Source of the DNA: a bacterium
GTDB taxonomy: Bacteria; Krumholzibacteriota; Krumholzibacteriia; LZORAL124-64-63
DNA length: 64,000 nt
NCBI GenBank assembly: GCA_024223715.1
Contig: JAAEOA010000188.1
Span: 1-64,000, forward strand
Direction of reading: 5' to 3'
Positions 9,634 through 55,497 of this stretch are shown here, one piece after another. The first letter of the stretch is position 1; each line of letters starts with the position of its first letter. The translations under genes and the position numbers were made by a program. A model generated the notes under the pieces. That model was not told the DNA's origin. It ran no database searches and saw nothing but the letters and a program-made list of their open reading frames with translations.

Positions 9634-10656
9634 CTACCGGTACAGGCTCTTGATACCGTCGAAGCTAACTTCTTCAGTAGCGGTGGTTCCGGGGAACAAA
9701 CCGGTGAATGTGCACAAGTAGTTGTACTCGTTTACAGGACCGGAGAATTCGCTAGGACCAACCCACAGCCACAAGAGGTCACCAGGGGTGCCTTGCAGGC
9801 TCAGGGTAGTAGCAACGCAAGGAGTTAAAGTAGCACTCTCAATTACGCCTACGGCGTCACAGTCGTTAGGACCGAGCAGGTAGATGTTGGTTCCTTGTTC
9901 TGCTTCAACAGTCCATTCAACCATTCCGTATTCACCAACGGTAATGATGAACCAGTCGGTGTCGCGGGAAGAATCATACCAGCCACTTTGACCACAGAAG
10001 GTCAAGTCGCCATTGCCGTCACCTTCGAGGCTCTGGAAAGGGCTGCCGTATTCTGGGCTGTTACAGCCACCGTTCCATGCATCCATGTAACCAGGATCCA
10101 AGGCAGGTTCGCCTTCGTCGTCGCCACAGTCGATGATGCAAGCTTCAAATTCCAGGATATTGATGACAAAGTCACCCATATCTCCGCCGTAACCATCAAC
10201 GATAACGAAGTATTCGGTTCCGCCCAAAAGATAGGCTTCCTGGATCATGGAAACATAACCAGGATGGAAATCGTCATTACAGGCGATAACGGTTTGGTCA
10301 GCCAGCATTACATAAACTTTGGTGTCGTAAGTAGAACCCAAGAGATCTACAGATACAACCATGTCAGATGCAGGAGTGAAGCTGTAAACTTGGTCAGGTG
10401 AAGTGGAACCGGAGTACGGGCATACAGCATCGTAGTCGTCCATGTTACCTGAGGTGTTGCCAGTGTCAGAGAAAGGCAAAGAAGCGATACCTACTGCATC
10501 GCCCATTGCTTCGCCACCGTCACGGCCGTCAGGGGTGCCGGGGTTCATTCCGACGTGGTCATTGGTTTTGATGTCACGAGACACGTTGCCCAGGTCGGCA
10601 GCTGCAGCTGAGCTAACCAGAGCGATCATCAGCACAAACGCTAACAAATTACGCAT
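9634..10656 (-). CDS. Secreted PPC-like protein with C-terminal IKSLYR tail
   Basis: Exported protein of 340 residues of unknown function. A signal peptide (about residues 1-20, cut after SSAAA) precedes two beta-rich modules resembling bacterial pre-peptidase C-terminal domains (about 55-170 and 190-330), acidic and with scattered Cys. The protein ends in SFDGIKSLYR, nearly the same as the secreted protein at 45692-46657 and similar to the lipoprotein at 44887-45540. A GGGAG site stands 9 nt before the ATG, and terminator 9572-9597 lies downstream. It appears monocistronic. Confidence 0.8.
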   Translation of the reverse strand: MRNLLAFVLMIALVSSAAAADLGNVSRDIKTNDHVGMNPGTPDGRDGGEAMGDAVGIASLPFSDTGNTSGNMDDYDAVCPYSGSTSPDQVYSFTPASDMVVSVDLLGSTYDTKVYVMLADQTVIACNDDFHPGYVSMIQEAYLLGGTEYFVIVDGYGGDMGDFVINILEFEACIIDCGDDEGEPALDPGYMDAWNGGCNSPEYGSPFQSLEGDGNGDLTFCGQSGWYDSSRDTDWFIITVGEYGMVEWTVEAEQGTNIYLLGPNDCDAVGVIESATLTPCVATTLSLQGTPGDLLWLWVGPSEFSGPVNEYNYLCTFTGLFPGTTATEEVSFDGIKSLYR

Positions 10657-16873: not shown

Positions 16874-18568
16874 TTATTTCAACATCAATAATTTTTCCGA
16901 TACCGCTTCGGTTTCCGTTTGAATTTTTACAAAATACATTCCGCTGGCCAAAGCCTGGCCCTGATTGCCTGAACCGTCAAAATTCAGTTCATGCTGACCG
17001 GCACTCAGTTGTTCGGAGACTAAAGTTCTGACCAGACGACCAGCGCTGTTATAGACTTTCCCCTCTACATAACTGGCCGCCAACAAGTTGAATTTTATTA
17101 CCGTACTGGGGTTGAATGGGTTGGGTGAAATCGCCAAATGCAAACCGTGGGAAGAGGGAACTTCAGGTGCCGCGGACAACAACGAAAGAGCCTCCCCCGC
17201 GTTTACTTTAACCCCAATGGGTTGGTCAAAAACAACCTCATCGCCAGTGCTCAACAATCGTTCAAGAACCAGATCAGGTGACAAACCTGGCGACTGATTT
17301 CTGATGAGCCCGCAAACACCGGCAACCAGCGGACAAGCCATGCTCGTGCCGTCGGAGTACATGTAAGGGTTCGTACCATCCCAGCCCATGCTCAGCATAT
17401 ACAGCAGTCCGTCAAGAAAACCAAATTCATAGTTTTGGCAAATGGTAGACCAAATACGGTTGCCCGGAGCTGCAACATCAACCCAGGGGCCGAAAGTACT
17501 GAAACTGGCCCGTTGGTTGTTTTCGTCGGTGGCGCCCACGGAAATTACCCCTTCGCAGGCCGCGGGATAAAACATTTCATTGGTATTGCTGTTTCCCGCG
17601 GCGGCCACACAAACAACATTGGCAGCGTTGGCTTCGTCCATCAGATCCTGCATGAAAGCGGCCATACCGTCCTGATCCGGGCCACCAAAACTCATGGAAA
17701 TAACATCTGCACCTTCTTCAATGGCGTAGAGAATGGCCCCGGTTATGGCCACATCGGTCATGTCGCCATTCTGGTTGGGCAGCTTCAGCGCCATGAGGGA
17801 GCAATTCCAGCCGGCACCCGCTACACCCAAATTATTGTCGGTGACTGCACCGGCAATTCCCGCGCAATGAGTGCCGTGAAAGCCAACATCAATACCTGTT
17901 GCATCGGGAGTATTGTGTGGACGTGGATCGTTGTCGTTGTTGCCAAAATCCCAGCCCTGGAAGTCATCAATGAAACCGTTGTCATCGTCATCTATGCCGT
18001 TGCCGGCAATTTCGTTGGGATTGGTCCAAATGTTCGACGCCAGATCCGGATGAGTTGTATCCACGCCGGTATCTATGATGGCGATGACACTGGCCGGGCT
18101 GCCGGTTTCCGATTCCCAGGCCAGATCCAACCCAACGGCGGCCGTACTGCCTGCCTGCAAATGCCACTGGGTGGGGACCATGGGGTCATTGGGCATGACC
18201 AATAATGGTCGAATGTAGTTTGGAGCCGCCGATTGAACCTCTGCAGTCGCCATCAGGGCCTTAGCCGCCTTAACGGGATCAAAATCGACATTTGTGCTTT
18301 CGAACACCACAAAACGGTTGTGGCTGGCCCGGTTTGGTGTGTTGCCTGGAAAAATCAATTGGCCACCATTGAGAGACAGTTCGTTCAGTAAAATTGAAAA
18401 TTCCCCAATCGAATTGCCCGACATTAATTCCGTTGCATCCACTCCGTCAGCAAAACAGACCAGCACCTGACCGGGAACCGATTCCATATTGTCGGCAAGA
18501 ATAATTCCGGGGAAAACAAGAGTACTCAGCAGGATTGAAAAAATAATGTGGCGAGATAGCGAACGCAT
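16874..18568 (-). CDS. Secreted subtilisin-like (S8) serine protease with C-terminal sorting domain
   Basis: Extracellular serine protease of 564 residues. A signal peptide is followed by an inhibitor-like propeptide (to about residue 120). The catalytic triad is visible: Asp in IIDTGVD, His in GFHGTHCAGIAG and Ser in GTSMACP; the oxyanion Asn is in AAAGNSN. The last 85 residues begin with SPNPFNPSTVIKF and end MYFVKIQTETEAVSEKLLMLK-like, the FlgD-type domain used as a type IX secretion signal in the FCB group. The ATG at 18568 is preceded by GGAGGATC; a longer frame to 18628 adds an implausible leader. Transcribed alone. Confidence 0.92.
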   Translation of the reverse strand: MRSLSRHIIFSILLSTLVFPGIILADNMESVPGQVLVCFADGVDATELMSGNSIGEFSILLNELSLNGGQLIFPGNTPNRASHNRFVVFESTNVDFDPVKAAKALMATAEVQSAAPNYIRPLLVMPNDPMVPTQWHLQAGSTAAVGLDLAWESETGSPASVIAIIDTGVDTTHPDLASNIWTNPNEIAGNGIDDDDNGFIDDFQGWDFGNNDNDPRPHNTPDATGIDVGFHGTHCAGIAGAVTDNNLGVAGAGWNCSLMALKLPNQNGDMTDVAITGAILYAIEEGADVISMSFGGPDQDGMAAFMQDLMDEANAANVVCVAAAGNSNTNEMFYPAACEGVISVGATDENNQRASFSTFGPWVDVAAPGNRIWSTICQNYEFGFLDGLLYMLSMGWDGTNPYMYSDGTSMACPLVAGVCGLIRNQSPGLSPDLVLERLLSTGDEVVFDQPIGVKVNAGEALSLLSAAPEVPSSHGLHLAISPNPFNPSTVIKFNLLAASYVEGKVYNSAGRLVRTLVSEQLSAGQHELNFDGSGNQGQALASGMYFVKIQTETEAVSEKLLMLK

Positions 18569-18646
18569 GTGGATCCTCCAAAACACAGGTGCAAACCAAA
18601 GGTGAAGACTTTCCAGCCAGTCTAACATAAAATCTTCAATTTTTGA

Positions 18647-19381
18647 GAGTCCATTTCCGCCGGCGTTGGTTGCACCCTTAGTACATCAGGAGTCACTTCA
18701 GGAGATTTCGATAACGATGGTGCCCTGGACCTTTTTGTCGCCGGCAATTTTCACATCTACCGCCTTTACAAAAATTCAAACTGCCCAAATCAGTGGCTAA
18801 AACTTCGCCTCCGTGGAACCGATGCAAATTCTGATGCGGTCGGGGCACAAATAGATTTATGGGCCGATGAGTTGCATTCCACCCGTTGGGTAACTGCCGG
18901 TGAAGGCGAAAGCGATTTCCATAGTCTTGAAGTGGAACTTAGGTTGGGCTCGGCCGCTTTTGCTGACAGCATACGAGTGACCTGGCCTGGCGGTCAGGAA
19001 CAAACTCTATGGGAAGTTGAAGCAAACCAGATTATTTCCATGACCCAGAGTTCTTCAATTTCTGCCATTGATTCTGCCCCGGCAGCCTTCGCATTCAACC
19101 ACCTGACAAACCACCCCAACCCCTTCAACCCAGCCACGGAAATTTCTTTCATCCTGGCCGAAAGACAAAACGTTGTATTGAGGATATTTGATATTCAGGG
19201 GCGTATGGTGCGAACACTCCTGGATGAAACGGCTGAACAGGGTCGCCATGCTGTTCACTGGGAAGGCGATAATGATCTGGGTCAGACTATTGCTTCGGGT
19301 GTGTATTTCTGTTGGTTGAGTTTGCGGGGAGCTTCCGGTATCCAAAAAACAACTACCAGAAAAACGATCCTTCATAAATAA
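18647..19381 (+). pseudogene. 5'-truncated FG-GAP/ASPIC-UnbV protein with sorting domain
   Basis: An open frame running from a stop at 18644-18646 to 19381 has no credible start codon before an ATG at 18872, yet the coding similarity begins earlier. It reads one FG-GAP calcium-loop repeat (GDFDNDGALDLFVAG), then an ASPIC/UnbV-type domain (QWLKLRLRGTDANSDAVGA and DSIRVTWPGG) and a C-terminal FlgD-like sorting domain (HPNPFNPATEISF). Intact relatives have several hundred residues of repeats and a signal peptide before this. The missing 5' part abuts the divergent protease gene. A short product from 18872 (169 residues) remains possible, but it would lack an export signal. Confidence 0.75.
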
Positions 19382-25674: not shown

Positions 25675-26307
25675 TTAGCCTTTGGCCTTAGCAGTAGAGC
25701 TGCAACATTTGGTGGTGCTAGAGCTACAACTTGTTGCCTTGGCAGAAGAGCTACAACTTGTAGTCTTGGCAGAAGAGCCACAACCTTTGGAAGCGCCCTT
25801 AACTGAGCCTTTTTGAGCAGCGCAAGCAGCGCCACAGGCAGCTTTCAATTCTTCTGCAGATTTGCCATGGCAACCTTTGCCAGCAGCCAAAGCGTCAGCA
25901 CAGCATTGGTCCATGTTACCAAGAACAGTTGAACAGGCAGAAACCTGTTTGGCATAGGCGGCTTTTACGGTAGCCGCGTCTTTATCGCAACAGCCTTTAC
26001 CGTCAACGACTGCTTTAGCGCAACATTTCTTCATATCGCTCAATGCAGCTTGGCTTGCATTGTAGCAAGCTACTTTAGCAGAAACTGTTTTAGCGTCTTT
26101 GCCACAGCAGGCTCGGTTTTTGGCAGCAGATTCGATGCAGCATTTGCCCGGTGCTTTGGGAATACTGGCACTCGCAGAGCATTTAGCAGACTCAGCGGAG
26201 GAGCATGATTTGGTGCTTTTGCAACCAGGGCCGCCAGCGAGGGCAACGGAGCTAATCATGGCGGTCAGGGCCAAGGCCATAACGAGGGTGTAAGCAATTT
26301 TTTTCAT
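25675..26307 (-). CDS. Secreted cysteine-rich repeat protein
   Basis: Exported protein of 210 residues with 23 cysteines. After a signal peptide (about 1-24) come three related repeats of roughly 38 residues, each starting with a CC pair and containing a second CC or Cys about ten residues on (KCC..ACCGKDA, KCC..GKGCCDKDA, QCC..GKGCHGKSA). The last 35 residues are a Ser/Lys/Cys low-complexity tail (CSSS units) produced by short DNA repeats. No family is known to me. The pattern suggests metal binding or a disulfide-crosslinked envelope component. A good ribosome site (AAAGGAAAAG) precedes the ATG. Confidence 0.72.
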   Translation of the reverse strand: MKKIAYTLVMALALTAMISSVALAGGPGCKSTKSCSSAESAKCSASASIPKAPGKCCIESAAKNRACCGKDAKTVSAKVACYNASQAALSDMKKCCAKAVVDGKGCCDKDAATVKAAYAKQVSACSTVLGNMDQCCADALAAGKGCHGKSAEELKAACGAACAAQKGSVKGASKGCGSSAKTTSCSSSAKATSCSSSTTKCCSSTAKAKG

Positions 26308-44886: not shown

Positions 44887-45540
44887 TTATCGATAAAGAG
44901 CCATCAAATTACTGAATTCGATTTCTTCGAGTCCTTTCATTAAAGTGCTTTCCACTGGGGAAATCCCAACAATTGTCCAGCAATCACCAGCCTCGTTTTG
45001 AAGGGCATAAAAATCCAGGGGCTGGTTGATTTCTAAAATGTAATTTTCAGGATAATTAACATACATCAACAAATTATACCGAGCCTTATAAGCGGGAATA
45101 CCAGCAAAATGTTCGTCGTTTTCCTCCACTGGTTCCCAGGTTGAGGCCTTGTCCAAAACATTTACAGCAATGGATTCAATAACTCCCACCGGATTACCAG
45201 CCGGGTCGCTTCCCGTATGGCTGGAAAAAATATTCTGCTGAATGACAACCATTTGATCGTAGGTTAAAAACTCTTCGGTTAGTGGATTAATGGAATTCTG
45301 CCAAATATCGATTATGGACTGTGGAATTATCAATTTCAAGTCTTCGTGAATAAGGCTCTCGAAAACGGTTATATTCATATTTTCATAGGCATCCTTAAAT
45401 AATATCACGGCCCCATCTGGTGGCATGGGGTTGAATTCACATTCACCAGGACCCTCATCAGGCTCAGCCGGATCATCATCAAAACACCCAATGCACAATA
45501 GAAGGCCCGAAAGAAGCAGAAACGGTGCTAGATATCGCAT
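44887..45540 (-). CDS. Lipoprotein with NTF2-like fold and C-terminal LYR tail
   Basis: Lipoprotein of 217 residues. The signal peptide ends LLCIGC and is followed by an Asp/Glu/Pro linker. The body (about 45-200) has the helix and strand order of an NTF2/SnoaL-like domain (DGAVILFKDAYENMNITVFESLIHEDLKL, ending CWTIVGI). The protein terminates in EFSNLMALYR, resembling the tails of the secreted proteins at 45692-46657 and 9634-10656. A good AAGGGGA site precedes the ATG at 45540. Function unknown. Confidence 0.75.
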   Translation of the reverse strand: MRYLAPFLLLSGLLLCIGCFDDDPAEPDEGPGECEFNPMPPDGAVILFKDAYENMNITVFESLIHEDLKLIIPQSIIDIWQNSINPLTEEFLTYDQMVVIQQNIFSSHTGSDPAGNPVGVIESIAVNVLDKASTWEPVEENDEHFAGIPAYKARYNLLMYVNYPENYILEINQPLDFYALQNEAGDCWTIVGISPVESTLMKGLEEIEFSNLMALYR

Positions 45541-45620
45541 GGAGTTCCCCTTTGTTTTTTCCGAATAAACAACCAAATCCAATACTACCACCATTTTAAA
45601 TATTAATTCCCATAAAAAAA

Positions 45621-45649
45621 CCGCGGTCCTGCCAGAAGCAGGGCCGCGG
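45621..45649 (-). terminator. Terminator after the IKSMYR secreted-protein gene
   Basis: CCGCGGTCCTGC pairs with GCAGGGCCGCGG (one wobble) and is followed on the minus strand by seven T. It separates the secreted-protein gene from the downstream lipoprotein gene. Confidence 0.87.
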
Positions 45650-45691
45650 AACTCAAACTAAAGAGTATTTACAACCAAAAAGCAGGCCGGA

Positions 45692-46657
45692 TTACCGGTA
45701 CATGCTCTTGATGCTGTCGAAAGTAGTAGCTTCGGTTGAAATGACACAATCCACAGTCACTTCCCAACCAGCTTCATTTACGCTGTATCCATCGAGGATC
45801 AGGTAGTAAGTACCAGGAGCATTGCCTGCATCAAACACAAGTGTTTCGGTGCCATTGGTGGTCGCATCCGCGCCAGCAACACAGCTTCCAACAGGATCAG
45901 CACAGTCGCTGACCAGGTAGATAGAGTTATCGAATGAAGTCACACCTGTGACAGTCAGTTGTTGGTCAGCAATCAACTCTACAGTGTATACCAGGTCCAG
46001 GCCATTGGCACTGTAACCAGTACAGCCACCGGCACCAGGACTGTAAGCGTTGGTTGCGCCACACATGTCATCAATGATGGTAGTTTCACACATGACCAGG
46101 GGCAGGGCGCCAGCACAAGTGTCATTGGCAGGAGTTTCACAAGGAGGAGCTGCTTCAGTAATAGCCAAATCAAAGGAGTTAATGCAATCAGGTAAAGGCC
46201 ATGTGTCAATCATGATGTAGTAAGTACCAGCGCTCAGAGAAAGACCGGAAAGAGTTTCGTCAAATAAGTAACTTCCAATACCAGCAATCAAAATACCCGA
46301 GTCAGGGCAACCATCAAAAATGGCAATTCCAGTATAAGGGGTGTCAGAGATTAAACTGACATCAATATCCAGATCTGCGTCAAGAGTTAACATATAAATG
46401 ATTTCTTCGCCACCGTCATAATTGCCCATATCGGTATCAGAATAAACGTTGCCACGGCCACAGGTAGTGTTACCTGCGTCGAGGTAAGGAATGTCAACAG
46501 TTCCGATTAGGATAGGGTCGGAGCAATCGTCGCCTGTAGCGCGAGATTCGCCTTCAGCTTGTTGAGGTACAATTACGCTCGGTCCGTGGTCTTTACCAGC
46601 AGTAGCCAGGCCAGAGACCAACATTATAGCCATGAGAGCGATAACAAACTTCTTCAT
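45692..46657 (-). CDS. Secreted PPC-like protein with C-terminal IKSMYR tail
   Basis: Exported protein of 321 residues. A signal peptide (about 1-20) is followed by two beta-rich modules similar to bacterial pre-peptidase C-terminal domains (about 45-165 and 170-305), each with paired Cys and the phrase LSAGTYYIMIDTW or APGTYYLILDGY. The C-terminus is TTFDSIKSMYR. It is a paralogue in layout of the protein at 9634-10656, although the middle sequence differs. GGAGGGGAACC precedes the ATG; terminator 45621-45649 follows. Confidence 0.82.
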   Translation of the reverse strand: MKKFVIALMAIMLVSGLATAGKDHGPSVIVPQQAEGESRATGDDCSDPILIGTVDIPYLDAGNTTCGRGNVYSDTDMGNYDGGEEIIYMLTLDADLDIDVSLISDTPYTGIAIFDGCPDSGILIAGIGSYLFDETLSGLSLSAGTYYIMIDTWPLPDCINSFDLAITEAAPPCETPANDTCAGALPLVMCETTIIDDMCGATNAYSPGAGGCTGYSANGLDLVYTVELIADQQLTVTGVTSFDNSIYLVSDCADPVGSCVAGADATTNGTETLVFDAGNAPGTYYLILDGYSVNEAGWEVTVDCVISTEATTFDSIKSMYR

Positions 46658-49055: not shown

Positions 49056-50138
49056 ATGAAACGCTTCATCATTCCCCTGACTGTCCTCGGATTACTGATT
49101 ACAACCTTCATTCCCGGCAATCTTATCGCCAATGAATCACCAAGGCGACTCTTCTTTTTGCATCACTCCACTGGACGTTTGTTAATCGAAGAAGGCAACG
49201 TTCGCCATCACCTGATCAATGCCAATAATTCCGATGGATCCGACTTGGTTTTGTGGGATCATGACTACAATTATATAGGCCTTTCCGACAATGAAGGCGA
49301 CCTTCTTGGTTACGACTATTCCATCCCCGAAGACAATACTGACCCTGATGGCCTGCACCAATTATGGACCACCAGCAATTCCGCGCGCGATTCCCTGCTG
49401 GCCCGGTATGATATCATCGCCTTCAAATCCTGTTACCCAACCTGTGACATTTCCAGTGAAACTCAACTCGACCAATACAAACAATGGTACCTGGAAATGC
49501 GAGATTTTTTTGATACAAAAACTGACATAACTTTCATCATTATGTCACCACCGCCAAGACACCGTCTTTCCACCAATCTGGAACATGCCGACCGCGCCCG
49601 ACGCTTTGCCAACTGGCTCATGAGTGATGAATATCTTTATGGCCATACTAATTTAGTAGGTTTTGATTTCTTCGATCTTTGTGCCCAACCGGACGACGGT
49701 TCCCCAACTCGAAACATGTTACGATATGATTTCGAACGCTCACACACCAATGGTGACTCGCACCCCAACGCCCTTGCCAACCAAACCAATGCACCCTTGT
49801 TTGTTGAAGTTCTGGTCAATGCTACCGAACCATCAACTTCTTCCGCCCGCAATTATCCCGAGCCCGTTTTGTTTCACCATAATCACCCAAATCCTTTCAA
49901 TCCTTTGACCGTCATTTCATTTGGACTTGAACAGGCCCAGTTTGTTGAATTGAAAATTTTCAACATCCACGGTCAACATGTGCGGACTCTTTTTTCAGAG
50001 ACCCGAAGCGCAGGGAATCACTCTGTAAACTGGAACGGCCGGAACTCAAATGGTCATGCAGTTAGCAGCGGAATGTACCTGTATCAAATCAGTGGAAATG
50101 AGAACACTGTTGTTGGAAAAATGATTCTGGCCCGTTGA
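49056..50138 (+). CDS. Secreted SGNH-like protein with C-terminal sorting domain
   Basis: Exported protein of 360 residues. A signal peptide (about 1-25) leads to a domain beginning RRLFFLHHSTGRLL and including KSCYPTCDI, ITFIIMSPPPRH and the phrase GDSHPNALAN, compatible with a degenerate SGNH-hydrolase fold in which DxxH gives the Asp and His; the catalytic Ser is not certain. The last 85 residues are a FlgD-like type IX sorting domain (HNHPNPFNPLTVISF to MYLYQISGNENTVVGKMILAR). AAGGAAC precedes the ATG. Confidence 0.75.
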   Translation: MKRFIIPLTVLGLLITTFIPGNLIANESPRRLFFLHHSTGRLLIEEGNVRHHLINANNSDGSDLVLWDHDYNYIGLSDNEGDLLGYDYSIPEDNTDPDGLHQLWTTSNSARDSLLARYDIIAFKSCYPTCDISSETQLDQYKQWYLEMRDFFDTKTDITFIIMSPPPRHRLSTNLEHADRARRFANWLMSDEYLYGHTNLVGFDFFDLCAQPDDGSPTRNMLRYDFERSHTNGDSHPNALANQTNAPLFVEVLVNATEPSTSSARNYPEPVLFHHNHPNPFNPLTVISFGLEQAQFVELKIFNIHGQHVRTLFSETRSAGNHSVNWNGRNSNGHAVSSGMYLYQISGNENTVVGKMILAR

Positions 50139-51895: not shown

Positions 51896-51938
51896 CACCA
51901 AACACAATTTGAAATTTCTATTTGATGAGTTTTTGTGG

Positions 51939-51944
51939 TATAAT
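51939..51944 (+). promoter_or_regulatory. Possible -10 box for CotH/LTD gene
   Basis: A perfect TATAAT lies 31 bases before the ATG at 51976. No convincing -35 hexamer is found at 16-18 bases upstream, so this is tentative. Confidence 0.4.
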
Positions 51945-51975
51945 ACTGCAAACACTTTTCCTTGGAGATTCCTCA

Positions 51976-54900
51976 ATGTGCCGTTCCTGCTGCCCAACCA
52001 GAGCATTCATTTATTCTTTCTCCATCCCGGCCCTGCTTCTGGTCCTTTTTGTTGCCCTGCCCAGCAATGCCCAAGTGGTTATTAATGAGTTTGTTCCCGC
52101 CAATACCGACGGCCTCCTCGATGAAGACAGCGATACCAGCGACTGGATTGAACTGGTCAACCTTGGAACCGAGCCTGTTGATCTTACTGGTTGGGGACTA
52201 AGCGATAACCCAGCCATACCTTTAAAGTGGCAATTCCCCCAATATCACATTTCACCTGGTGAGCACCTGCTTATTTTTGCCTCGGCCAAAGATCGGCAAT
52301 CTGCGAATTTCTGGCACACCATTGTTAACCGAGGTGACCTTTTTCGATACCGAGCCAATGAAACCGCTCCTCCGGTCGATTGGCATTTGTCATCGTTCGA
52401 CGATTCCGCTTGGCCGGAAGGGCCTTCTGGATTTGGTTACAGCGACAACGACGACAATACTATTCTTCCCTCCTGCCAATCGGCGTCACTACGCCATAAT
52501 TTTATGATTGAAAATCTTTCCGAAACCAGTCTTTTGGTTTTGCACATTGATTATGATGATGGTTTTGTTGCCTGGATCAACGGTCAGGAAATCATTCGTG
52601 AAAATCTTCCTCCCATTGAAGACCTGCAATGGGACACCCTTCCCGGCACCAGCCACGAAGCCCAAATGTACCATGGCAGCCAGCCCAATCGTTATGTGTT
52701 TAAGACTTCCGAATTGCCCCTGCAGCAGGGGACGAACCTGCTGAGCATTGAAGTCCACAACGTAAGTAACATTGCCGATGACCTCAGCCTGATTCCTTTT
52801 CTGACTTTGGGACTGGCCTCAGAACCGGCAGGAGGAGCCTCGGTCAGTTCGGAAATTGATGACCAATTTCCCATTTTGCACACCAACTTCAAACTCTCAG
52901 CCTCTGGTGAAGACGTCGTTCTGACCAACAATTATTTCGCCAATCAGGATGCCATCAACTACGGTCCCATGGTGGCCGACTTTTCACTGGGCCGCCATCC
53001 CGACGGTCTGGGCCCCTGGTTGCTTATGAGTGAAACCACCCCCGGCCAGGCCAACAGTGAAACGGCCTACAGTGGCTTTGCAGAAGCCCCCACTGTTGAC
53101 CTTCCCGGTGGTTTTTATTCTGGTCCGGTGGTGGTTCAAATCACTCCCCCAGTCAGTGGTGGCGAAGTCCGATTTTCTCTCAACTCCGATGAGCCCGACG
53201 AAGCGAACAATCTTCTTGATGGATCGATTACGATTTCCGAAACCACAGTCTTGCGCACCCGCACCTTGGCCACGGGTCTTTTCCCCAGCACCATTGTCAC
53301 CAACACCTACATCATCGATGACCCCAGTGAATTACCGGCAACCTGTCTGGTTACCGACCCCCTGAATTTGCACGACAGAGATATCGGAATTTTTGTGGAA
53401 GCAAATATCTGGGAAGACTGGGAACGACCCATGCACATCGAACTTTTTGAAACCGATGGCACCACTGCGCTGAAGCAAGATGCCGGAGTTCAGCTCTTTG
53501 GTGGCGGCAGCCGGCAAAATGCTCAGAAAAGTTTGCGGCTGATAGCCCGCAGTGGTTATGGTGACGATACTTTTTCCCACTCTGTTTTTGATGAGCGCCC
53601 CCTGAATGAATACAACCAATTGGTTTTTCGCAATTCGGGCAGCGAATGGCGACACACAATGATGCGTGACGGACTCATGCACCGCCTGATCAGCCATACC
53701 GATGTCGATCACCTGGCTTGGCGCCCCAATCGAATTTACCTGAATGGTCAGTACTGGGGAATGCTTCACGCCCGGGAACATGTCGATGCTGATTATATTG
53801 CCGCCAATAATGGCGTAGACGCCAACAACATGGACCTGATCAAAGACCACGACGAAGTAAAAGCCGGCGACATAACCCACTTCGAAAACATGATGGATTT
53901 TGTGCGTTACAATTGGCTGGGAAATGGCGACAACTTTGCCTGGATGGAAACTCAAATGGATATGGAAAATTTCATTAACTATAATGTTTTTGAAATTTTC
54001 CTGGGCAATACCGACTGGCCAGGACAAAACATTGCCTGCTGGCGTCCCCGCACTGAACAAGGCCGCTGGCGATGGATCTTCTATGATCTGGATTTTGGCC
54101 TGGGCCTCTACGAAGACTACAATCACGATACGCTGGAGTTTGCCCTCAGTTACAGTTATGATGAATGGCCCAACCCTGCCCATAGCACCTTGCTGTTGCG
54201 CCGACTAATGGTTAATAGCCAATTCTCCCATCAGTTCATCAACAGCTACTGTGACCATCTGAACACGACTTTTTTAGCCCATCGAACTGAGGGCATACGT
54301 CAGGAAGTCCTTGCGGCCATTGAGCCTGAAATTGTTCGCCACCGGGACAAATGGGAGCACTCACCAATGTTCTGGGACTACACCATGGGCGTGGTTCAGG
54401 AATATTTGCAACTGCGACCCGCTTCAGCCAGGGAGCACCTCAGGGAGAAATTTGAACTGCAGGATGATGTCACCTTATCTCTGTCCATGTCCCCGCCCCA
54501 TGCCGGGTCCATTCGCCTGAGTGCTGTTACCATCGACACCACTTTTACGGGAACATATTTCCGCAATCACTCCCTTTCAGTCACAGCTGTTCCTGCTTCG
54601 GGTTACGTATTCAGTGGATGGGCCAACCCGGAACGTCCCCAGGTGCCAGTATTGGATCTTGCCATGGCAGACAATGAAAACCTGGTTGCTGTTTTTATTG
54701 AAGCACCTCCTGAGGGCACGGTGGTCATCAATGAAATTTGTTATAACGCCTCTGCCTCCTGGAACACCGATGACTGGATTGAACTGCACAACCCCGGCCA
54801 AAACCCGGTGGATATTTCTCTTTGGAAGTTCCGCGACTCCAGTGACAGCCACTTGTACACTTTACCCGATTCGCAAATTTTGCCCGCCGGTGGTTTTGCG

Positions 54901-55497
54901 GTGCTTTGCAGAAATACGACCCTTCTTCAATACTACCATCCTGAAGTGACTCCACTTGCCGGAAATTTTGATTTCGGCCTCAGTGGCAGTGGTGAAGCCC
55001 TGCGTCTTTTTGATGCCCAGGACAACCTTATGGACACCGTTGTTTATGATGACCAAAGCCCCTGGCCTCCTGAGGCTGACGGTTGGGGCCCCACTCTTGA
55101 ACTGATCGACCCCTGGCTGGATAACGCCCTGGCTGAAAGCTGGGTTGCATCTGAAGGATACGGCTCCCCCGGTGCCTCCAACTCAGAATTATCTGCTGCC
55201 GATGGTTTTCCGGAATTATTGCAGATCGACCTTTTTCAACCTCACCCCAATCCCTTCAACCCATTAACTCACATATCCTTTACTTTGGATGCGGCCCGTC
55301 GCGTTGATGTGGCCGTATTTGATTTGGCCGGTCGTCGGGTTCGCACACTTGCTGGTGGGTCTTTTACTGCGGGCTTACACCACCTGACCTGGAATGGAAA
55401 GAATGACCATGGCAAAGGTGTTTCTTCCGGGGTTTATTTTGTGGGAATGAAATCGGGTGACTTCCAGGCAACCAGGAAAGTTATGCTCCTGAAATAA
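51976..55497 (+). CDS. Large secreted CotH/lamin-tail-domain protein with sorting domain
   Basis: Extracellular protein of 1173 residues. Signal peptide (about 1-33); first lamin-tail domain (VVINEFVPANTDG..DWIELVNLG, about 34-135); a CotH kinase-type domain (about 460-760) with HAREHVDADYIAANNG and the metal-binding IFYDLDFGLG; an InlB/Bacterial_repeat-like module (about 830-900, VTAVPASGYVFSGWA); a second lamin-tail domain (VVINEICYNASASWNTDDWIELHNPG); and a C-terminal FlgD-like sorting domain (HPNPFNPLTHISF). CotH relatives phosphorylate secreted proteins; similar architectures are common in FCB bacteria. The ATG at 51976 has GGAG upstream. Confidence 0.88.
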   Translation: MCRSCCPTRAFIYSFSIPALLLVLFVALPSNAQVVINEFVPANTDGLLDEDSDTSDWIELVNLGTEPVDLTGWGLSDNPAIPLKWQFPQYHISPGEHLLIFASAKDRQSANFWHTIVNRGDLFRYRANETAPPVDWHLSSFDDSAWPEGPSGFGYSDNDDNTILPSCQSASLRHNFMIENLSETSLLVLHIDYDDGFVAWINGQEIIRENLPPIEDLQWDTLPGTSHEAQMYHGSQPNRYVFKTSELPLQQGTNLLSIEVHNVSNIADDLSLIPFLTLGLASEPAGGASVSSEIDDQFPILHTNFKLSASGEDVVLTNNYFANQDAINYGPMVADFSLGRHPDGLGPWLLMSETTPGQANSETAYSGFAEAPTVDLPGGFYSGPVVVQITPPVSGGEVRFSLNSDEPDEANNLLDGSITISETTVLRTRTLATGLFPSTIVTNTYIIDDPSELPATCLVTDPLNLHDRDIGIFVEANIWEDWERPMHIELFETDGTTALKQDAGVQLFGGGSRQNAQKSLRLIARSGYGDDTFSHSVFDERPLNEYNQLVFRNSGSEWRHTMMRDGLMHRLISHTDVDHLAWRPNRIYLNGQYWGMLHAREHVDADYIAANNGVDANNMDLIKDHDEVKAGDITHFENMMDFVRYNWLGNGDNFAWMETQMDMENFINYNVFEIFLGNTDWPGQNIACWRPRTEQGRWRWIFYDLDFGLGLYEDYNHDTLEFALSYSYDEWPNPAHSTLLLRRLMVNSQFSHQFINSYCDHLNTTFLAHRTEGIRQEVLAAIEPEIVRHRDKWEHSPMFWDYTMGVVQEYLQLRPASAREHLREKFELQDDVTLSLSMSPPHAGSIRLSAVTIDTTFTGTYFRNHSLSVTAVPASGYVFSGWANPERPQVPVLDLAMADNENLVAVFIEAPPEGTVVINEICYNASASWNTDDWIELHNPGQNPVDISLWKFRDSSDSHLYTLPDSQILPAGGFAVLCRNTTLLQYYHPEVTPLAGNFDFGLSGSGEALRLFDAQDNLMDTVVYDDQSPWPPEADGWGPTLELIDPWLDNALAESWVASEGYGSPGASNSELSAADGFPELLQIDLFQPHPNPFNPLTHISFTLDAARRVDVAVFDLAGRRVRTLAGGSFTAGLHHLTWNGKNDHGKGVSSGVYFVGMKSGDFQATRKVMLLK

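Follow-up and report, generated by a model that had tools for sequence, protein, structure and literature searches.

A short, modular C-terminal tail on unrelated exported proteins of Krumholzibacteriota, a likely sorting tag

The window analysed here, a whole stretch of 64,000 nucleotides, lies in contig C188 of a source assembly (G000) of 4.62 Mb in 439 contigs. A preliminary description of its sequence had reported that three exported proteins, encoded at 44887-45594(-), 45692-46657(-) and 9634-10656(-), end in nearly the same residues, and all three tails were found in place. The genes concerned, their tails and the four genes of the window with a FlgD-like C-terminal domain (CTD) are listed below.

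9634..10656, minus strand: Sec-exported protein of 340 aa, ending in TATEEVSFDGIKSLYR (SFDGIKSLYR; short form ATEEVSFDGIKSLYR)
9634..9687, minus strand: C-terminal tail of this gene, 17 codons and the stop
44887..45540, minus strand: lipoprotein of an NTF2-like family, ending in EEIEFSNLMALYR (EFSNLMALYR)
44887..44940, minus strand: variant tail of the lipoprotein, with Met in place of the invariant Lys
45692..46657, minus strand: Sec-exported protein of 321 aa, ending in STEATTFDSIKSMYR (TTFDSIKSMYR)
45692..45745, minus strand: C-terminal tail of this gene, 17 codons and the stop
16874..18628, minus strand: S8 subtilase with a FlgD_ig/Por_Secre_tail C-terminal domain (the alternative signal), by domain match
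18872..19381, plus strand: protein with a FlgD/T9SS-like C-terminal end domain, seed of the CTD profile
49056..50138, plus strand: protein with a FlgD_ig/Por_Secre_tail C-terminal domain, by domain match
51922..55497, plus strand: CotH and lamin-tail protein with a FlgD/T9SS type A sorting domain, TIGR04183 above cut-off

The lipoprotein ORF spans 44887-45594(-), and its start was placed at MRYLAPFLLL, giving 44887..45540; its lipobox region reads LLLCIGC-FDDDP. Its tail shows a K-to-M variant at the otherwise invariant Lys. The BLAST match of this protein to one tailed Eisenbacteria lipoprotein was weak, so the status of its ending was decided by the orthologues in relatives. The relatives within the genus show the same kind of Lys variant (SYDGVLAMYR and SYDEVLSLYR), and the ending was therefore accepted as a real tail. 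The 45692-46657 protein gave weak matches to PPC/T9SS-associated galactose-binding-like domains. The 9634-10656 protein, PPC-like according to the preliminary description, had no Pfam match; its nearest named homologue is from a Krumholzibacteriia MAG (50% identity), and the tail was kept in all of its orthologues and paralogues (L164, L204, and L001). Its AlphaFold model was poor (mean pLDDT 49) and was left out of the evidence. Also encoded in the window, at 25675-26307, is an exported protein of 210 aa whose low-complexity repeat (CSSSxK) is rich in Cys and Ser.

Across the source genome, the tail consensus [ST]-[WF]-[GD]-x-[ILV]-K-[AS]-[LM]-[YF]-R-stop ended about 40 exported proteins. The pattern I-K-x-x-Y-R-stop had 14 matches in the 4.62-Mb genome, every one an in-frame C-terminus, and the proteins behind them almost all carried a signal peptide and had apparently unrelated bodies. 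A loose tail pattern gave 86 matches versus 44 in the reversed control, and [FWLC]-x-x-[ILVM]-K-x-[LMIF]-[YF]-R-stop gave 37 versus 0. In a 539-kb sample of the genome, the strict motif was internal just once in 157,000 aa, and tails were carried by 4 of 119 predicted exported proteins and by none of the 298 others. This sample was chosen mostly regardless of tails but partly avoids known tail places, and tail density is therefore understated. A signal peptide was predicted by one heuristic in 86% of the tailed ORFs compared with 39% of the other ORFs. When the bodies of the 41 tailed proteins of this genome longer than 110 aa (median length, 212 aa) were compared by BLASTP, they fell into 27 families, the largest with 10 members. 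As support for its proposal, the preliminary description had named a sharing of the tail by dozens of unrelated exported proteins, and as a check an enrichment of the motif at the terminus over internal positions; these counts agree with both. It had also named two outcomes that would refute it, confinement of the motif to the three genes and homology over their full length, and neither applies to some 40 proteins with so many kinds of body.

The strict pattern was present in all 80 genomes examined of the window's phylum (1,221 matches against 20 in the control, summed), at 1 to 41 copies per genome: 10-41 in the window's own family and mostly 1-17 in the other families, one genome of which had 39. 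In the Eisenbacteria phylum, the tail was found in 40 of 47 genomes. One group of about ten Eisenbacteria genomes has 0-3 copies, and the genomes of that phylum without any match were G366, G389, G390, and G394-G397. When 85,000 named species genomes were scanned with the exact pattern, at least 117 stretches were returned. Among the matches listed, most came from Candidatus Eisenbacteria, Candidatus Krumholzibacteriia, and MAGs without a name, with some from Latescibacterota, one from Zixiibacteriota, and a few from Ignavibacteria/Chlorobi; the complete genes among these, a handful excepted, end exported proteins. The whole genomes behind thirty of the listed loci mostly held 9-72 tail copies. 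Tailed genes also occurred under unexpected titles: Planctomycetota SJ778 (L174), Reyranella sp. (L141), Fibrobacter sp. IMS_BF (L114), and Gemmatimonadetes DeMMO4_6 (L096). The IMS_BF title is probably wrong because its SprA coordinates are identical to those of a genome of the window's own family (G010), and the SJ778 and Reyranella cases, with only 3-4 tails per whole genome, look like stray contigs.

Among the Bacteroidota, 56 of 248 sampled genomes had one WG[SM]IK[AES][ML]FR tail each, by our own count of WG-type matches. In nearly all of the loci read, this tail ends a secreted protein of about 135 aa with an FN3 fold; a Foldseek search with one orthologue confirmed FN3 and gave nothing further. 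The FN3-tail gene adjoins maf in one lineage and is followed by a gene for an MXAN_6640-family secreted metallopeptidase in another, and loci with this gene in basal Bacteroidota include L140:1552-1944, L127:5690-6250, and L229-L248. The tail was absent from most of the T9SS-positive Bacteroidia sampled. The preliminary description had mentioned IKALYR-like endings in other FCB genomes, and this is now matched by the tails of the window's phylum, Eisenbacteria, and basal Bacteroidota.

Column statistics on 40 tails from the source genome and 126 named tails gave, counting from the end, R at -1, [YF] at -2, [LM] at -3, [AS] at -4, K at -5, [ILV] at -6, [GD] at -8, [WF] at -9, and [ST] at -10, followed upstream by [ED] at -13, [TN] at -14, [AP] at -15, and V at -16. 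In the source genome, the conserved stretch thus exceeds ten residues and includes V-[AP]-[TN]-[ED] at -16 to -13. R -1 and K -5 were demanded by the search pattern, and their 100% is by construction; the same is true of W and G in the named tails, which were found with a W-G pattern. The named-tail scan left positions -16 to -10 and -4 free, save for a weak limit at -4. Hydrophobic residues recur at -9, -6, -3, and -2, and the hydrophobic moment peaked at 100 degrees (z 11.8 versus shuffled tails), with strand periodicity also above the shuffled level (z 7.2 at 180 degrees). In AlphaFold models of 23 FN3 orthologues, a confident body (pLDDT mostly >90) was followed by a separate C-terminal helix, residues 117-128, of moderate confidence (pLDDT about 67-69). 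The tail was the best-conserved part of the FN3 family, with 5 of 11 invariant columns within the last nine residues; members had been picked by the tail, which bears on this count. The V-x-x-E part was not present in the FN3 orthologues, and direct reading of the last 22 residues of the tailed proteins found no hydrophobic span beside the C-terminus. Together, these data describe the tail as a linker, flexible and often V-A/P-T-E, and then a probably helical, amphipathic stretch of nine residues, [WF]-[GD]-x-[ILV]-K-x-[LM]-[YF]-R-COOH. Decayed or shifted tails were also seen, at L252:16920-18200 (FGGVKAMYRGTSK), L153:4448-5230 (SWGAIKSLY), and L158:1582-2601 (SWGRIKLLFRR).

The NTF2-like family of the window lipoprotein has both tailed and untailed members in the relatives, which makes the tail a separable module. 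After lipidation, untailed members mostly start with C-[IL]-F-[SET]-P, and they end where the domain does, whereas tailed members mostly begin with C-[SN]-[DE]-[DE] and have the linker and tail added. An acidic pair at +3/+4 was scored in 10 of 18 tailed versus 0 of 23 untailed members (Fisher p 3.9e-5, a test that treats the family members as independent). Three further tailed lipoproteins were scored negative with the pair one residue later or the Cys missed by the lipobox call, and the window lipoprotein (CFDDDP) was left unscored for the same cause. In Bacteroidota, the N-termini SDDDD and SDDFE direct lipoproteins to the surface (PMC5080379). The acidic N-termini of the tailed lipoproteins resemble these and thus lend independent support to a surface destination, although surface exposure itself is inferred. 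The lipoprotein export signal (LES) of Bacteroidota, C-x-K/S-[DE]2-3 (PMC5080379), is likewise close to CFDDDP here and to CSDDDDP in L303, which resemble the SDDDD of B. fragilis; the LES is N-terminal and specific to lipoproteins, whereas the tail is C-terminal and mostly found on non-lipoproteins.

The FlgD-like proteins of the window match PF13860/PF18962, one of them also TIGR04183 above cut-off, and hence carry T9SS type A-like CTDs; the 539-kb sample contains about 23 genes that end in a CTD, set against 119 for exported proteins. With a profile seeded from the four CTDs of the window, which found 88 CTD proteins among the loci examined, none of 194 tailed proteins carried a T9SS CTD. 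No above-threshold match to PF18962/TIGR04183 or PF13585/TIGR04131 was found in the tailed proteins scanned, NCBIfam scans, without a dedicated ChiA-type model, gave no match to a ChiA-type CTD, and the tail logo, with its conserved region of 17 residues, contained no GxY, beta-fold, or other T9SS CTD motif. The tail is therefore distinct from the FlgD-like sorting domain, as the preliminary description had proposed. Some mutual exclusion of tail and CTD is expected since both occupy the C-terminus. What had not been foreseen is that, on homologous bodies, the tail and the FlgD/T9SS domain can stand in for each other; the presence of SprA in all tail-bearing genomes checked and the acidic, surface-export-like N-termini of tailed lipoproteins were likewise unforeseen. 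Among 25 homologues of tailed bodies without a strict tail, 14, in four families (beta-helix/POMP-repeat, ExeM-like lamin-tail, and two others), ended in a FlgD/T9SS CTD instead, 6 had a variant tail, and 5 had neither, at least one of which looks like a frameshift artefact. In two cases, the tailed and CTD forms were neighbouring paralogues, with 47% identity over 233 aa (E 4e-53) at L151:4138-7999 and 42% over 129 aa at L114:4077-6985. The lamin-tail stretch of the window's 51922-55497 protein is homologous to a tailed protein in L114.

SprA (TIGR04189) was encoded in all 80 genomes of the window's phylum and in all 75 other tail-bearing genomes checked (72 above cut-off). A few genomes were counted twice between the two sets (G010/G089 and G067/G091), so that 155 SprA-positive tail-bearing genomes is an upper count. 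The association of tail and SprA is strong but phylogenetically confounded. SprA was also present in 55 of 80 tail-less Bacteroidota, and with so many SprA-positive genomes lacking the tail, canonical T9SS does not need it. The source genome encodes a PorU sortase (479.7 bits; cut-off 420) that adjoins a PorV-family gene, and at L254:5376-10962 this PorV-family gene stands next to the gene for the 1,498-aa sortase. The PorV family was found in all 80 genomes of the phylum, with about 10-11 genes in the source genome. We considered whether PorV-family copy number tracks tail number, and rejected this, as the numbers do not follow each other. The preliminary description had suggested that linkage to a specific protease or translocase would strengthen its proposal, but none recurred beside the tail genes at 111 tail loci, and no tail gene was seen in the sprA stretches read. 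The MXAN_6640 peptidase was rejected as a general partner, being adjacent only in the WGMIKEMFR lineage. At L273:8139-15609, the neighbours of sprA are lptF/lptG-like permease genes and, downstream of it, a gene of 311 aa judged by eye to be M28/glutaminyl-cyclase-like; rimP-nusA-infB-like genes follow in several relatives (L275, L277, and L278).

No NCBIfam or Pfam model covered the tail, and searches of open-licence papers with its common peptide strings and with taxon plus sorting topics gave nothing. Like the T9SS type A CTD (PF18962/TIGR04183; FlgD_ig-like, PorV-bound, and PorU-cleaved), the tail forms the very end of Sec-exported proteins and has a basic terminal motif; both signals occur on homologous bodies within one genome, and the genomes encode SprA, PorU, and PorV. 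The two differ in that the tail has about 17 residues, a probable helix, and no GxY, whereas the CTD is an Ig-like beta-sandwich of about 70-80. PEP-CTERM, GlyGly-CTERM, and LPXTG are tripartite signals with a transmembrane helix followed by a basic stop. The tail is, like them, a short modular C-terminal tag on dozens of unrelated exported proteins per genome, but unlike them and other sortase, exosortase, and rhombosortase signals, it is a predicted 9-residue amphipathic helix without a membrane span. Short CTDs of 40-55 aa in Prevotella intermedia keep motifs B, D (GxY/GxN), and E (PMC11969387), and a minimal CTD region of 22 residues is known from P. gingivalis HBP35 (PMC3120885). Both are precedents for T9SS export by a short C-terminal stretch, although they represent the final beta-strands of the CTD and carry its motifs D and E, none of which the tail has. 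T9SS CTDs of types A, B, and C have been described (PMC10202324); type B (PF13585, PorP/SprF-dependent) and type C (ChiA) offer precedents for alternative signals and other barrels but belong to other sequence families, type B being conserved over about 100 residues. Other FCB phyla have been reported as possible carriers of a T9SS (PMC11285876).

These results suggest that the tail is, very probably, a real and modular C-terminal sorting tag for exported proteins, and they uphold the short sorting, processing, or assembly tag of the preliminary description by its scale, its C-terminal position, and the 27 body families. Chance or common descent, under which the tails would be either the termini of a single homologous family or an accident of composition, can be regarded as already refuted: one family does hold 10 of the 41 proteins, but the number of families, the near-zero controls, and the presence or absence of the tail within one lipoprotein family contradict it. 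The strict C-terminal position, the hydrophobic residues, and the free carboxylate would also suit a periplasmic quality-control or degradation tag of the PDZ/Prc type, but that reading leaves the CTD exchange, the LES association, and the co-occurrence with SprA unexplained and seems very improbable.

The reading we favour, at a probability of roughly 0.58, is a short, probably helical sorting signal that the T9SS outer-membrane apparatus recognises on proteins bound for the cell surface or for secretion. Its main rival is a surface docking or assembly tag without T9SS translocation, in which the helix would bind one outer-membrane or surface receptor (scaffold, matrix, or vesicle) after any export route, and soluble proteins and LES-type lipoproteins would share one assembly. 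The strongly conserved hydrophobic face, Lys, and terminal Arg are as expected for a specific receptor, and the many Bacteroidota with just one user, the FN3 protein, hint at a single partner. For the lipoproteins whose acidic N-termini resemble surface-export signals, a route to the surface that bypasses T9SS is possible, and this counts against the T9SS reading. However, the CTD exchange on homologous bodies and SprA in all tail-bearing genomes point to T9SS, and no candidate receptor was found beside the tail genes; docking alone is thus possible but rather unlikely. A processing signal, cut at the V-x-x-E/linker with the new C-terminus joined to a surface glycan or lipid and the helix serving as a protease handle (compare PorU and the CTDs), is more doubtful still. 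V-[AP]-[TN]-[ED] is conserved about 14 residues from the end in the source genome, PorU is encoded there, and an HExxH secreted peptidase of the MXAN_6640 family adjoins the FN3-tail gene; but V-x-x-E is missing from the FN3 orthologues, the peptidase linkage is limited to one lineage, and the tail lacks the transmembrane segment of sortase, exosortase, and rhombosortase signals.

Under the T9SS reading, tailed proteins would first be exported by Sec. An outer-membrane receptor, for which one of the approximately 10 PorV/PorQ-family barrels is the most plausible candidate, would then bind the exposed C-terminal helix, either in the periplasm or at SprA. The protein would next move through the SprA translocon or alongside it and be displayed or released at the surface, outside the outer membrane. 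The short tail would thus have the role that an FlgD-like/T9SS CTD of about 80 residues plays for other proteins encoded in this genome. What has been observed, by computation, is the tail with its strict C-terminal position and its modularity, its exchange with the CTD, and SprA in every tail-bearing genome checked; the destination at the surface, the role of SprA as pore, a receptor of the PorV type, and cleavage of the tail or its absence are inferred without experiment. More tentatively, the tails could represent a new class of bacterial C-terminal signals, an amphipathic helix in place of a beta-domain or transmembrane tag, read by a dedicated, as yet unidentified outer-membrane receptor common to Krumholzibacteriota, Eisenbacteria, and basal Bacteroidota; the clients of this receptor would number tens in some lineages and a single FN3 protein in others.

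With the tail, exported and surface proteins of several large uncultured phyla, most of which are annotated as 'hypothetical', can be picked out by sequence. It points to recognition, by the type IX system or one of its partners, of a signal a quarter as large as the known one, and the single-client FN3 gene of Bacteroidota is a minimal case for a receptor search. If this is true, 17 residues could be enough to send cargo to the surface, opening the way to simple reporter tests and engineering.
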